A stretch of 64,000 nucleotides of DNA from an uncultured SAR86 cluster bacterium (lineage in GTDB: Bacteria; Pseudomonadota; Gammaproteobacteria; Magnimaribacterales; AG-339-G14), in assembly GCA_902570035.1 (NCBI GenBank), contig CACFWO010000004.1, forward strand, positions 62,001 through 126,000, in the 5' to 3' direction. The notes beneath the pieces are model-generated. The model was not told the origin of the DNA. It ran no database searches and saw only the letters and a program-made list of their open reading frames with translations. Numbering within the stretch: the stretch's first letter is position 1; the number at the start of each line of letters is the position of its first letter. A program made the translations under genes and the position numbers. Below, piece after piece: positions 8,706 to 54,843 of this stretch.

Positions 8706-9272
8706 TTAATCTCTAGCTAGAAAGATAAGGAAAAAAGAATTTTTACTTCGGGTAAAGCAAATAAACTCATCATAAGAAATTAGAGCATGAGACCACTCAT
8801 GCTCATATTTGATTGCCTTGATGTCTTTAAAAGATTCAGAATTTTCTAAAAATACAAATTTATAACTATCAAAATAAATTTTATTTACTCTTTCGTTAAA
8901 TTTTCCAATTGATTCATTATTAATGACATTCTTATATTTGGTTTTTGCATTAACTACAGAATCAACTGATTTAAAAAAAGAATTATTAGGAGGTATTTCA
9001 AGGTAATTTTCTACTTGAACGTTTTTAGATAGAAAAGGCCCATGATATTTTGGGAGATAATTAAAGAAATTCCCAGTTAGTTGGAAATTAAAAAAAGGAC
9101 TAGCCTTGTATATTTCTAATAATTTTTTTGATGAATAAGATTTATTATTATTAATGGAAAAAAAAGAAATTAAACATTGGAAATTTGTACCTAATCTAAG
9201 ATAGTCAGTACCATTTAAAAGTAAATCTTCATTTTTATGTGAAGAAGATTTTTTACTTTTTTCAAATTCCAA
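8706..9272 (-). CDS. Hypothetical protein of unknown family
   Basis: 188-aa ORF with an 11-bp overlap with the 3' end of trpS; no family recognised. Confidence 0.55.
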   Translation of the reverse strand: MEFEKSKKSSSHKNEDLLLNGTDYLRLGTNFQCLISFFSINNNKSYSSKKLLEIYKASPFFNFQLTGNFFNYLPKYHGPFLSKNVQVENYLEIPPNNSFFKSVDSVVNAKTKYKNVINNESIGKFNERVNKIYFDSYKFVFLENSESFKDIKAIKYEHEWSHALISYDEFICFTRSKNSFFLIFLARD

Positions 9273-10245
9273 TTTTTTCCTTAATTTGCTCTAAATTTTT
9301 ATTAGCTTCATCTCTAGCTTTAGTTTCACCAGCCTCTAATGTGTCTTCTATCAATTTAGGATTATCTATTAATTCGAAATATTTATCTCTAAGAGGTAAT
9401 ATTTCTTGATTAATTTTTGAAAATAATTTTTTCTTGGCGTCCCCCCAACCAATTCCGTCTTCAAACTCTTTTTTTATCTCATTTATTTCTTCTTCATCAG
9501 AAAAGTGATCAAAGTACTGAAAAATAATTGAATCTTTTGTTTCTTTTTTTTCACCAGGTTCTTTTGAATCGGTTTTAATTTTATTGATGGATTTTTGCAA
9601 AGTTTTTTCTGAGGAAAATAAATCTATAGAGTTATTGTAACTTTTGCTCATCTTTCTTCCGTCTGTACCAATTAATAAATCGAGAGATTCATTAATTATA
9701 GGCTCAGGTAATTGAAAAAAATTTTCATAAGTTTTGTTAAATTTATCTGCTATGTCACGAGTAATCTCTAAATGTTGTTTTTGGTCCTTTCCTACAGGAA
9801 CATATTTAGGATTGAACATCAAAATATCTGCTGACATCAACACTGGATAACTAAATAAACCGTGAGAAATGCCATAGTCTTCATCGTTTTTATTTTCTTT
9901 ATTTAGATCAACTGCAGCTTTGTATGCATGCGCCCTGTTAAGGAGTCCTTTAGGAGCCATACAAGACAAGATCCAATTTAATTCAAGTATTTGTGGAACT
10001 TTCGATTGCCTGTAAAAAAGAGAGTTTTTACTATCAAGTCCGCATGCTAACCATGTCGCAGCTATCTTCATGGAAGATTCTTTTACGGCGTTAGGATCAT
10101 TAACTTTTATCAGAGAATGATAGTCAGCTAGAAAGAGATAGGATTTGAATTTCTTACTTAGCTTTATAGCAGGTTTTATAGCTCCAACGTAATTGCCTAA
10201 ATGAGGCGTTCCAGTAGTTGTAATACCTGTAAGAGAGGAATCCAT
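9262..10245 (-). CDS. trpS: Tryptophanyl-tRNA synthetase
   Basis: GITTTGTPHLGNYVGAIKP (HIGH-like), KMSKSYNN (KMSKS), VPVGKDQKQHLE. Confidence 0.94.
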   Translation of the reverse strand: MDSSLTGITTTGTPHLGNYVGAIKPAIKLSKKFKSYLFLADYHSLIKVNDPNAVKESSMKIAATWLACGLDSKNSLFYRQSKVPQILELNWILSCMAPKGLLNRAHAYKAAVDLNKENKNDEDYGISHGLFSYPVLMSADILMFNPKYVPVGKDQKQHLEITRDIADKFNKTYENFFQLPEPIINESLDLLIGTDGRKMSKSYNNSIDLFSSEKTLQKSINKIKTDSKEPGEKKETKDSIIFQYFDHFSDEEEINEIKKEFEDGIGWGDAKKKLFSKINQEILPLRDKYFELIDNPKLIEDTLEAGETKARDEANKNLEQIKEKIGI

Positions 10246-10256
10246 TATATAAGTAT

Positions 10257-10285
10257 AAAAAAAAACACCACAAAAGTGGTGTTTT
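10257..10285 (-). terminator. Intrinsic terminator 11 nt upstream of the trpS start codon
   Basis: Minus strand AAAACACCAC-TTTT-GTGGTGTTTT followed by a U-tract. Confidence 0.8.
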
Positions 10286-10435
10286 ATCGAAGTTGAAGGG
10301 GTTCAGTGGGTTCTACTGATGCAGGCGATTGACCCGTCTCCCTGCAGGTGGCTGAGTTTCCTCAGTTCTTCTCACCCTTCTTCTTCTCATCTTTTACTTC
10401 TGTTTAATCGTCTCGAGTTAATTAAATTTAGTTAA
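10258..10435 (-). ncRNA. Candidate structured RNA / leader RNA upstream of trpS, ending in an intrinsic terminator
   Basis: GC-rich stretch (about 54% GC over 10291-10380) in an AT-rich intergenic gap. Minus-strand hairpins CTGAG-GAAA-CTCAG and TGCAGG-N15-CCTGCA are enclosed by a GAAGGG/CCCTTC closing stem, followed by a terminator. The 5' end is estimated from a TATAAA-like box. Confidence 0.5.
10313..10390 (-). CDS. Candidate Arg-rich leader peptide (25 aa)
   Basis: ATG...TAG reading MRRRRVRRTEETQPPAGRRVNRLHQ inside the candidate ncRNA. It could be coincidental. Confidence 0.25.
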   Translation of the reverse strand: MRRRRVRRTEETQPPAGRRVNRLHQ

Positions 10436-10563
10436 AAGACTGATATTTATACTAATGATTTTTTTGTTTGATTCAATACCTAAAATGCACTTTTTAAGAT
10501 TAATTTCTTATTAAAAAAGTTTTTTATATTTATATATAAGATAAAAAATAAATTGGTTAATTT

Positions 10564-11094
10564 TTAATCAATTATAGAAAAGATTTCTTCAATTGAGTCA
10601 TATAAATTGAACATATTGAATGTTTTTTCATTAAAAAAACCTTCATCTTTTGCGTGCTTAAGAAATATTTTTAGTGAATCATAAAAGCCGTTCGTGTTTA
10701 GGATAAAAATTGGTTTATCTATAATGTGAAGTTGATTCCATGCCATGATTTCAAAGATCTCCTCATATGATCCGACTCCTCCTGGTAACAAAATAAAACA
10801 ATCAGCAGCATCAGACATAAGTTGTTTTCTTTCATGCATGGTTTGAACAATTTTTAATTCCTGGATACTCTCATGGCCTGCCTCCATATCAAGCAGTCTT
10901 TCAGTAATAACTCCATAAACGTCACCTCCTTCAGAAAGACAGCCGTTTGCGAGCTCATTCATCAAGCCTACTCCTCCTCCTCCATAAACAAGTTTATGGT
11001 TTGAGATAGCAATTTGTTTACCTAATTCAAAGGCTGTTTCGGCATAAACAGAATCCTTACCAATTGATGAACTTAGAAAGACGCAAATATTCAT
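10564..11094 (-). CDS. LOG family protein (TIGR00730-type)
   Basis: VYGGGGVGLMNELANG, LLPGGVGSYEEIFEIMAWNQL. The first 12 residues of the ORF-track version are tRNA read-through; start revised to ATG at 11094. Confidence 0.88.
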   Translation of the reverse strand: MNICVFLSSSIGKDSVYAETAFELGKQIAISNHKLVYGGGGVGLMNELANGCLSEGGDVYGVITERLLDMEAGHESIQELKIVQTMHERKQLMSDAADCFILLPGGVGSYEEIFEIMAWNQLHIIDKPIFILNTNGFYDSLKIFLKHAKDEGFFNEKTFNMFNLYDSIEEIFSIID

Positions 11095-23294: not shown

Positions 23295-26200
23295 CTAGAA
23301 CCTGTAGTAAAAACCTACCTTAATTTGATAAAGCGATCTTTCTGAATCTATGGATGATCCATTCGGAGAACCTACATTTGAATATGTAAAAGTCCCTGTA
23401 TCTGATACGTCAACATCAACTACATTTTGTTGAGGATTTGCATCTCTGTACACTCCGTACTTACTATCAAGCAAGTTACCTAAATTCTTTATAGTTAAAT
23501 AAAGCTCAGCCATGTGACCTGCTACAAATCCAGGAAATTCCTGAGCTATCTTTAAGTCATACACAGTATTCCATGAGCCATCTATTGAATTTCTAGGACA
23601 TATTGAACCACGAGCACAACCAAGACTATCTGTTAATGCTAATAGTTCAGTAATGTCTCCAGCAACCCCCGGATCTGATTCGCCTGTAGGCACATAAATT
23701 AGAAATCCATTTTCAAAGCCATAGCCACTACCTGCGTATCCGTCCATCATGATTGAATAAGGATTACTTTGAAAATGATCCAAAAATAATGAAACTTTTG
23801 TTCGATATTGACCCTCTATAGTTATCGGTGTCCAGCTTAAAGTAGCGGTAACTCTTTCTGGAATATTAAATCTTGAAATACCTATTTCTGGATCTTGTTT
23901 ATTGAAAGTTGCATAATTTGTAGCATTCGTAAAAGCAACGCTTGACGACATAGGAGCTACATTTTCAGAAAAGTTTTTTGCATATCCTAGTGAGATTGAT
24001 AAAGATTGATCAAACCATTCCTTTGAAAAAGAAGTTGAATATGTAAGGTCTTGAGGTCTTTTATCAGAATTAGTAAGCATCCAGTCTTGGCCTCTGTTAA
24101 CCCTACCGCTGCTGTCGTATTGTGGAAATCCATTAAAAGTATCCCCACTAAAAGTGTACATTAAATCTCTAATGTAATAAGGGTTTTCTGTTTCAGCGTA
24201 CATTACATCTAAATTGAAGACCAAACCTTCTTCGCCAAAAGATGAAGAATAACCAAATGCAATTTTATGGATAATTGGAATTTCAAGATTTGGGTCCATA
24301 GAATTTGTTGAAGAAATTGTTCCGGGAACTATTTGGGAAGTAAGGCTGCACGGTACGTTATATCCAGGTAGACCGGCACCTGATACCGCTGATCCATCAG
24401 CTGGGCTACACATTGCATCGTTAAATGCATCTATTCCTCTTTCATTAACTTGAATGGCGGTAACTCCATCATTTGCAAACATGTTGTAAAACCAAACATT
24501 TGGATTTCCACCAGAATATCCTCCGTATCCACCATATAATGTTGAGAAATCATCTATATCCCATTCAAATCCTGCTCTCAACATCAAAGCATCAACGCCA
24601 TCGTGATTAACGGTGTTTGAATAACCGTAAGCAGATAGAAACCCAGAATTAGCAGCTGGAGCATCCGGGACCATGTAGGTGTCGTATCTAAAGCCAATGA
24701 TGACGCTTAAATCATCGCTAGCTTGAATTTCATCTTGAACATATACGGTTGCAGTACCAAGACTAGCAGTTGGAGCAGCATCTAGCTCTCTGTAGCTTGG
24801 TGTATTTCCAAAATAAACTCTTGCAGCTCCAGACTCTAAGTCAGCGATGCTATTAAAATCCCATTCCCCACCTTGAGAATGCTGTAAAAAAAGATTAAAA
24901 ACATCACTTATTTCGTAATCTATTCCGTAAGAAATGAGATGGTTGCCTACAAGTTGGTCAAGAGAATACGAAATGGTAGTAGAGGTATATGCTAACTTGT
25001 TTGCTTGTCTCGAGTCATCAGTACCACCAAAATAAACCGTACCTCTTTCACCGTTATCAGGATTGGTTACTCTTATTTGGAAATCACCAAAAGGGCCGCC
25101 TAATCCAATCTGTCTGTTATCAACATCTTTATAACCCACAGAAAATTTACTGCTGAGATCGTCTCTGATGTCAGAAAATAAATTAAAATTGAAGGCGTAC
25201 ATTTCATGTCCTCTCTCATAAAAGTGCTTGGAAAATTCAAATTCATTGTTGTCATTATCTGATGGAGTGTTATTAAAACCATCGTTGTAATTCAAACTCA
25301 TTGAAATAGAATTATTGTCGTCTACTTCGATATCAAATTTAGCTAAAAACTTATTATCATAACTATCTTGAGCTCCTGCAAGGCCTCCAGGATTAAATCC
25401 GTAAAGATCGGTAGCTGCAGTCACAATTCTGTTGTAATCACTAAGACTTAGAAAGGATCTCTCTTCTGGCATTCCTGAGCCTAAATATCCCATCTTACTG
25501 ACATCAACGTCATCGTATCTTTCAGCAGAGATAAAAAAGAAAGCTTTATCTTCAACAATGGGTCCACCAAGAGTGAATCCTATTTTTTGTTCTTCATAAG
25601 GAACAGCTTGAACTTTCGATCCATCAATCATCGAACCAACCATTTCATCATTGGTAAACTCATAGTAAGCAGCTCCTTCAATTTCGTTACTTCCCGTTTT
25701 AGTAACAGCATTGATGACACATGCAGAAAAACCGCCATACCTAACATCAAATGGAGCTAGCTCAACTGAAACTTGTTCAATTGAATCGTAAGAAAAAGGT
25801 TGTCGATTCGTTGGATAACCGTTTGTGTTAAGTCCAAAAGAATCATTCAAGGCGATGCCATCAACCATAATGCTGTTGTACCTAGGATTAGCGCCGTTAC
25901 ATTGGAATCCTCTGTCATCTCCTTCGTTGATAAATAATCTTGGATCTTGACGAATAACATCTTTAATATCTTTTTCAAATGAGATGGCTGAATCTAACTC
26001 AGTCAAGCCAAAGACTCTATTGGGTCCTACCGCTGTTTGAGAAATAGCAATTGAATCTCCCATCACAACTAGTTGTTCAAAATCTGTTAAGACAACAGTT
26101 AAAGAGAGCGTTTTACCAAGATTTAAATATACATCTTCATATGTTTGTCTACCTTCGGAAGAATTAACTACTATGGTGTAAGGACCGCCAACTTCTAAAT

Positions 26201-54678: not shown

Positions 54679-54843
54679 TTAAATAGTCTTTTCTAAAGAT
54701 ACTATCTCTTCTCTATGCACAGGTACTTGATTTGGTGCAGTGATTCCTAATCTAACTTGACTGCCCTTGATTTCAAGAACTGTAATAGTTACATTTTCTC
54801 CAATCAATAATTTTTGATCTTTTTTTCTGCTTAAAACTAACAT
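54679..54843 (-). CDS. csrA: Carbon storage regulator CsrA
   Basis: [54 protein letters not shown] read on the minus strand. Not in the ORF track. Confidence 0.95.

Follow-up and report, generated by a model that had tools for sequence, protein, structure and literature searches.

An IMES-5 family RNA upstream of trpS in an uncultured SAR86 cluster bacterium and its predicted independent transcription unit

The intergenic region upstream of trpS in an uncultured SAR86 cluster bacterium encodes a member of the IMES-5 RNA family, which is already catalogued in Rfam. The RNA lies on the minus strand of the window, i.e. the whole stretch of 64,000 nucleotides that was analysed and to which all coordinates refer (Table 1). 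A cmscan search against Rfam 15 returned RF02995 with 137.3 bits (gathering score 96.1; E = 4e-27 over the whole window), and this full-length match above the gathering score, which contains few non-standard pairs, identifies the RNA as a member of a known family. All consensus helices are present and are supported by covariation. A hit to a known Rfam family had been listed in the preliminary description of this region, made from the letters and open reading frames, as an outcome speaking against its reading, and RF02995 is such a hit. Taking the IMES-5 identity and the status as a free RNA together, we are close to certain of both. The additions made here to the known family—its transcription unit, its host range of two families, a loop–loop contact and the failure to find Hfq—are small, yet a free unit with these properties narrows what IMES-5 can be.

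Table 1. Features of the IMES-5 locus and its neighbours, in window coordinates.
Feature	Position	Strand	Basis
IMES-5 RNA gene, predicted transcript of ~180–185 nt	10257..10442	(-)	Promoter geometry and terminator
IMES-5 core	10288..10438	(-)	RF02995, model positions 1–150 of 150; own model R1, 138.9 bits
−35 box TTGAAT	10471..10476	(-)	Fixed distance from the RNA in 49/50 homologues
−10 box TAGTAT, 16-nt spacer from −35	10449..10454	(-)	Conserved position in 49/50 homologues
5′ domain: outer stem (10432–10438 with 10391–10397) and inner hairpin	10391..10438	(-)	Covariation
Apical loop CUCGAGAC of the 5′ hairpin, with palindrome CUCGAG inside	10410..10417	(-)	Same in 49/50 copies
3′ domain, closed by long stem GAAG-AA-GAAGGG/CCCUUC-AA-CUUC (10375–10386 with 10289–10300)	10289..10386	(-)	
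Hairpin CUGAG-GAAA-CUCAG	10352..10365	(-)	Both-side changes in 5/5 pairs
Hairpin UGCAGG...CCUGCA, loop GGGU at 10332–10335	10320..10346	(-)	Both-side changes in 8/10 pairs
Third hairpin of the 3′ domain, loop ACCC at 10308–10311 pairing with GGGU	10302..10319	(-)	Loop–loop helix
Intrinsic terminator, stem 10262–10285, run of 9 U	10257..10285	(-)	Terminator scan
TATACT, likely trpS −10 box, 6 nt before ATG	10252..10257	(-)	29/29 f1 loci
trpS, tryptophan--tRNA ligase, neighbour	9262..10245	(-)	TIGR00233, 299.5 bits
TIGR00730 (LOG-like) protein, upstream neighbour	10564..11094	(-)	TIGR00730, 167.3 bits

Among 200 genomes of the host's order, IMES-5 was found above the cut-off in 50, all of them from two families, with 29 loci in the host's own family (f1) and 21 in the second (f2); the host genome carries a single copy. 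Five f1/f2 genomes that were checked and lack IMES-5 (G007, G013, G016, G020 and G031) also lack a true match to trpS, so that these absences look like assembly gaps. No IMES-5 was found in 10 f3/f4 genomes using a filter-free model on the trpS loci, a whole-genome model and a motif pattern. Two weak matches (17.7 and 13.9 bits) were rejected as homologues because the conserved strings are missing from them. Under stricter filters, 369 genomes sampled from the class gave matches solely in the host's own family, and none were found in viral contigs or phages. Genome sizes of 1.1–1.8 Mb, a low GC content, 6S RNA and CsrA are in keeping with a host that is probably a marine gammaproteobacterium of the SAR86 type.

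The RNA occupies a gap of 318 bp between the ATG of trpS at 10245 and the end of the upstream gene at 10564. In 90-nt windows, the GC content inside this gap is 0.50–0.53 as compared with 0.12–0.22 just upstream, confirming the GC-rich stretch in an AT-rich gap that had first drawn attention to the region. Signals for transcription are placed in a regular manner around the RNA: a motif of the form TTGnnn-(16 or 17 nt)-TAnnnT ends 9–13 nt before the core in 49/50 loci, compared with 2.7% of shuffled upstream sequences. The upstream promoter of the preliminary description, which is sigma-70-like and keeps its place in 49/50 homologues, stands as far as its TTGAAT box is concerned; the −10 box, however, is best read as TAGTAT, slightly different from TATAAA. 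A generic promoter scan of the window made no call for the IMES-5 promoter.

Downstream of the core, a terminator scan found one site on this strand where 0.1 were expected, and this terminator is conserved in all 29 f1 loci. The strong intrinsic terminator claimed earlier is present where it had been placed: its U-run ends at 10257, leaving 11 nt to the ATG of trpS. In f2, a convergent gene encoding an RNA 2′,3′-cyclic phosphodiesterase (TIGR02258) is located between IMES-5 and trpS in 21/21 loci. In 16 of these (L026, L028, L029, L033, L035, L043–L050 and L059–L061), the stop codon of the convergent gene overlaps the RNA core or lies no more than 5 nt from it; no terminator is visible there, and the RNA 3′ ends must therefore form in another way. 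As read from its promoter and terminator signals, IMES-5 is an independent transcription unit, whose ends (5′ near 10442, 3′ in the U-run) are inferred from the positions of these elements. By its Rfam E value and its covariation the RNA is far removed from a chance finding. The original proposal of a noncoding, structured RNA that has a promoter and a terminator of its own is supported.

That proposal had allowed for two readings of the RNA, namely a free sRNA or a cis-acting attenuator or riboswitch for trpS. As a trpS leader, the RNA would have its terminator opened or closed by tryptophan, a tRNA or another signal, and the arrangement in f1, where IMES-5 and its terminator directly precede trpS on the same strand in 29/29 loci, is compatible with such a role. 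Yet, the gene intervening in all 21 f2 loci is encoded on the opposite strand and leaves the RNA outside the trpS transcript. In f1, TATACT-N6/7-ATG precedes trpS in 29/29 loci, with the TATACT starting at the last T of the terminator U-run in every one of them; this box is probably the promoter of trpS, from which a leaderless mRNA would arise. Moreover, the fold contains no antiterminator that competes with the terminator stem, and none of the regulatory families in Rfam, T-box included, exceeds its threshold. Because trpS is preceded by an opposite-strand gene in f2 and by its own −10 box in f1, a free RNA is supported and a leader is not: of the two original readings the free sRNA holds, and a cis leader, whether attenuator, riboswitch or T-box, was rejected as extremely unlikely. 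We regard trpS as a neighbour outside the IMES-5 system and, judging from synteny and promoter position, very probably not what IMES-5 controls. In f3/f4 genomes, trpS follows an unrelated, opposite-strand gene, and a TATAAT-like box is found shortly before its ATG in most of them.

The minimum-energy fold of the minus strand contains both hairpins of the preliminary description, CUGAG-GAAA-CUCAG and UGCAGG...CCUGCA, exactly where they had been placed, as well as the GAAGGG/CCCTTC closing stem (10375–10380 with 10295–10300) that had been considered possible. Its z-score is −4.09 with the terminator (0/200 shuffles as good) and −2.37 without it (2/200). Covariation among relatives, which had been named as a check, was assessed using a covariance model (R1), to which all 50 copies from both families were realigned; the structure in R1 is that of the window copy as aligned by Rfam. 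Covariation proved strong in the stems: 87.0% of cells are paired compared with 68.9% in shuffles, 29/42 pairs have changes on both sides and the covariation score reaches 0.483 compared with 0.171 for shuffled and at most 0.125 for slid versions—counts that lean towards the structure since the R1 alignment is fitted to it, although the margin is still large. In the 5′ domain, both-side changes affect 11/13 pairs of helices 1 and 2. The long stem closing the 3′ domain has 100% of its cells paired among 48 distinct sequences, with 9/10 pairs invariant and one covarying.

This invariance is also relevant to the idea that the RNA is a small mRNA, the product of which would be the ORF MRRRRVRRTEETQPPAGRRVNRLHQ starting at an ATG in the linker. 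An Arg-rich frame is present in the host's genus and f2 copies begin alike (MDRRRRV), but the letters that relatives share in this ORF can be attributed to the invariant closing stem, the C-terminal parts differ, and both ATG and frame are missing in g3 (GAATAGAAG). The start codon not being conserved, a small protein was rejected, and we assign a coding function next to no probability.

A further helix, GGGU with ACCC, joins two loops of the 3′ domain, those of its second and third hairpins. It is absent from both R1 and the structure line that Rfam prints. Of its cells, 99.5% are paired, and both-side changes occur in 2/4 pairs; two variants from different genomes, AGGU/ACCU and GGUU/GACC, keep the pairing. 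RNAalifold independently chose the same contact on the first alignment. We infer from these sequence patterns that the two loops form a kissing-loop or pseudoknot contact. The most divergent IMES-5, L052 from genome G025, has its second 3′-domain hairpin rewritten (UAUCAACUAU/AUAGUUGAUA) with pairing kept.

The apical loop of the 5′ hairpin is exposed and nearly invariant. Its sole exception among the 50 copies, L059, reads CUAGAGAC, where a CUAGAG breaks the palindrome. From its conservation, the loop might be where the RNA binds a partner or pairs with itself. When the 5′ hairpin is cofolded with a second copy, pairing via the palindrome is favoured (−10.9 to −18.7 kcal/mol for the pair); such a result is expected for any palindrome, making predicted dimerisation only a lead.

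With 8 nt exposed and kept in 49/50 copies across two families, this loop looks like a seed, as would befit a regulatory RNA of the antisense type, in which the CUCGAGAC loop or the purine-rich strand would pair with mRNAs. However, the purine-rich strand is already paired in every copy, and the exact loop complement GTCTCGAG is not enriched in three genomes, in which 5–8 sites were counted as compared with 14–22 for the reversed control. None of these sites is at a gene start and, apart from the RNA gene itself, all are within genes, for which reason an antisense seed via the exact loop complement was rejected. In addition, Hfq (PF17209) was found in 0/41 genomes of the order (G000–G040, with a completeness of 90% or more in 25), whereas five control genomes were positive; the Hfq that an Hfq-dependent sRNA calls for is thus not detected in the host. 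Altogether, antisense pairing appears unlikely.

Hfq is not detectable, it is chiefly the fold of the RNA that is conserved, and gene starts carry no target of the loop; this combination rather points to a protein partner, which we tentatively put forward as the most likely way in which IMES-5 works. On this reading, IMES-5 is a free-standing, stable structured RNA whose transcription starts at a sigma-70-type promoter of its own and, in the host's family, stops at an intrinsic terminator; it acts in trans and very probably does not regulate trpS. It would work through the protein partner instead of antisense pairing, and the CUCGAGAC loop might serve as the contact site, either for the protein or, via the CUCGAG palindrome, for another IMES-5 molecule in a kissing dimer. 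The combined explanation, i.e. IMES-5 identity and free RNA plus a protein-partner mechanism, we consider fairly probable. A bolder version is a long shot: IMES-5 would be abundant and housekeeping-like in a streamlined marine lineage that has no Hfq, would be kept compact by the loop–loop contact and dimerise through CUCGAG, and would serve a protein whose RNA binding has so far gone unrecognised.

Sequestration of CsrA, in the manner of CsrB or RsmZ, was considered as well. CsrA is encoded in the host genome and IMES-5 RNAs contain 1–6 GGA triplets, but these vary in number and place, AnGGA mostly occurs 1–3 times per RNA and the window RNA has just two GGA, and hairpin loops repeating the triplet are not where they lie. 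The Rfam matches include no CsrB/RsmY/RsmZ-type family either, and with too few GGA in hairpin loops, a sponge of this type was rejected as very unlikely. The csrA gene itself is located at 54700–54843 (-) of the window, beside tRNA-Arg(ACG).

The preliminary description had further stated that the RNA is not 6S, 4.5S, tmRNA or RNase P RNA, and indeed none of the four is among the Rfam matches at this locus. A divergent 6S RNA was rejected since RF00013 does not match and the host has a separate 6S gene (G000:C1:227207-227377), as have 40/41 genomes of the order, host included. The same applies to a divergent RNase P RNA, with no match to RF00010 and a separate RNase P RNA in 39/41 genomes. 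The host assembly (G000, 87.5% complete) is missing RNase P RNA, which is present in 8/8 relatives of the same genus; the absence is most likely a gap. In G017, two equal-scoring 6S matches in inverse orientation on one contig (G017:C10:5876-6047 and 24185-24356) reflect a duplicated gene or else an artefact of the assembly.

Compared with known systems, IMES-5 shares with 6S RNA a length of ~180 nt, a stand-alone gene and an own promoter, but does not match its model and lacks the large central bubble. The CsrB/RsmZ sponge RNAs are likewise stand-alone and structured, and IMES-5 has a host with CsrA, yet it lacks the series of GGA hairpin loops that marks them. A terminator directly preceding the gene of an aminoacyl-tRNA ligase, as seen in f1, is a feature in common with T-box and trp leader attenuators; IMES-5 differs from them in giving no family match, in not being adjacent to trpS in f2 and in standing before a trpS with a probable promoter of its own. 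The closest comparison is with the IMES families themselves, which were reportedly defined by Weinberg and colleagues in 2009 and 2017 through computational comparison of marine metagenome sequences. The window copy has the helix order of RF02995 and the strings CUCGAGAC, AGAAGAAGAAGGGUGA and CCCCUUCAACUUCG in common with it, while its loop–loop pairing is not part of the structure line, nor its terminator of the length, in the cmscan output for IMES-5. It departs from the family in a weakened outer 5′ stem and an AU-rich 5′ hairpin, and its membership is unbroken by either.
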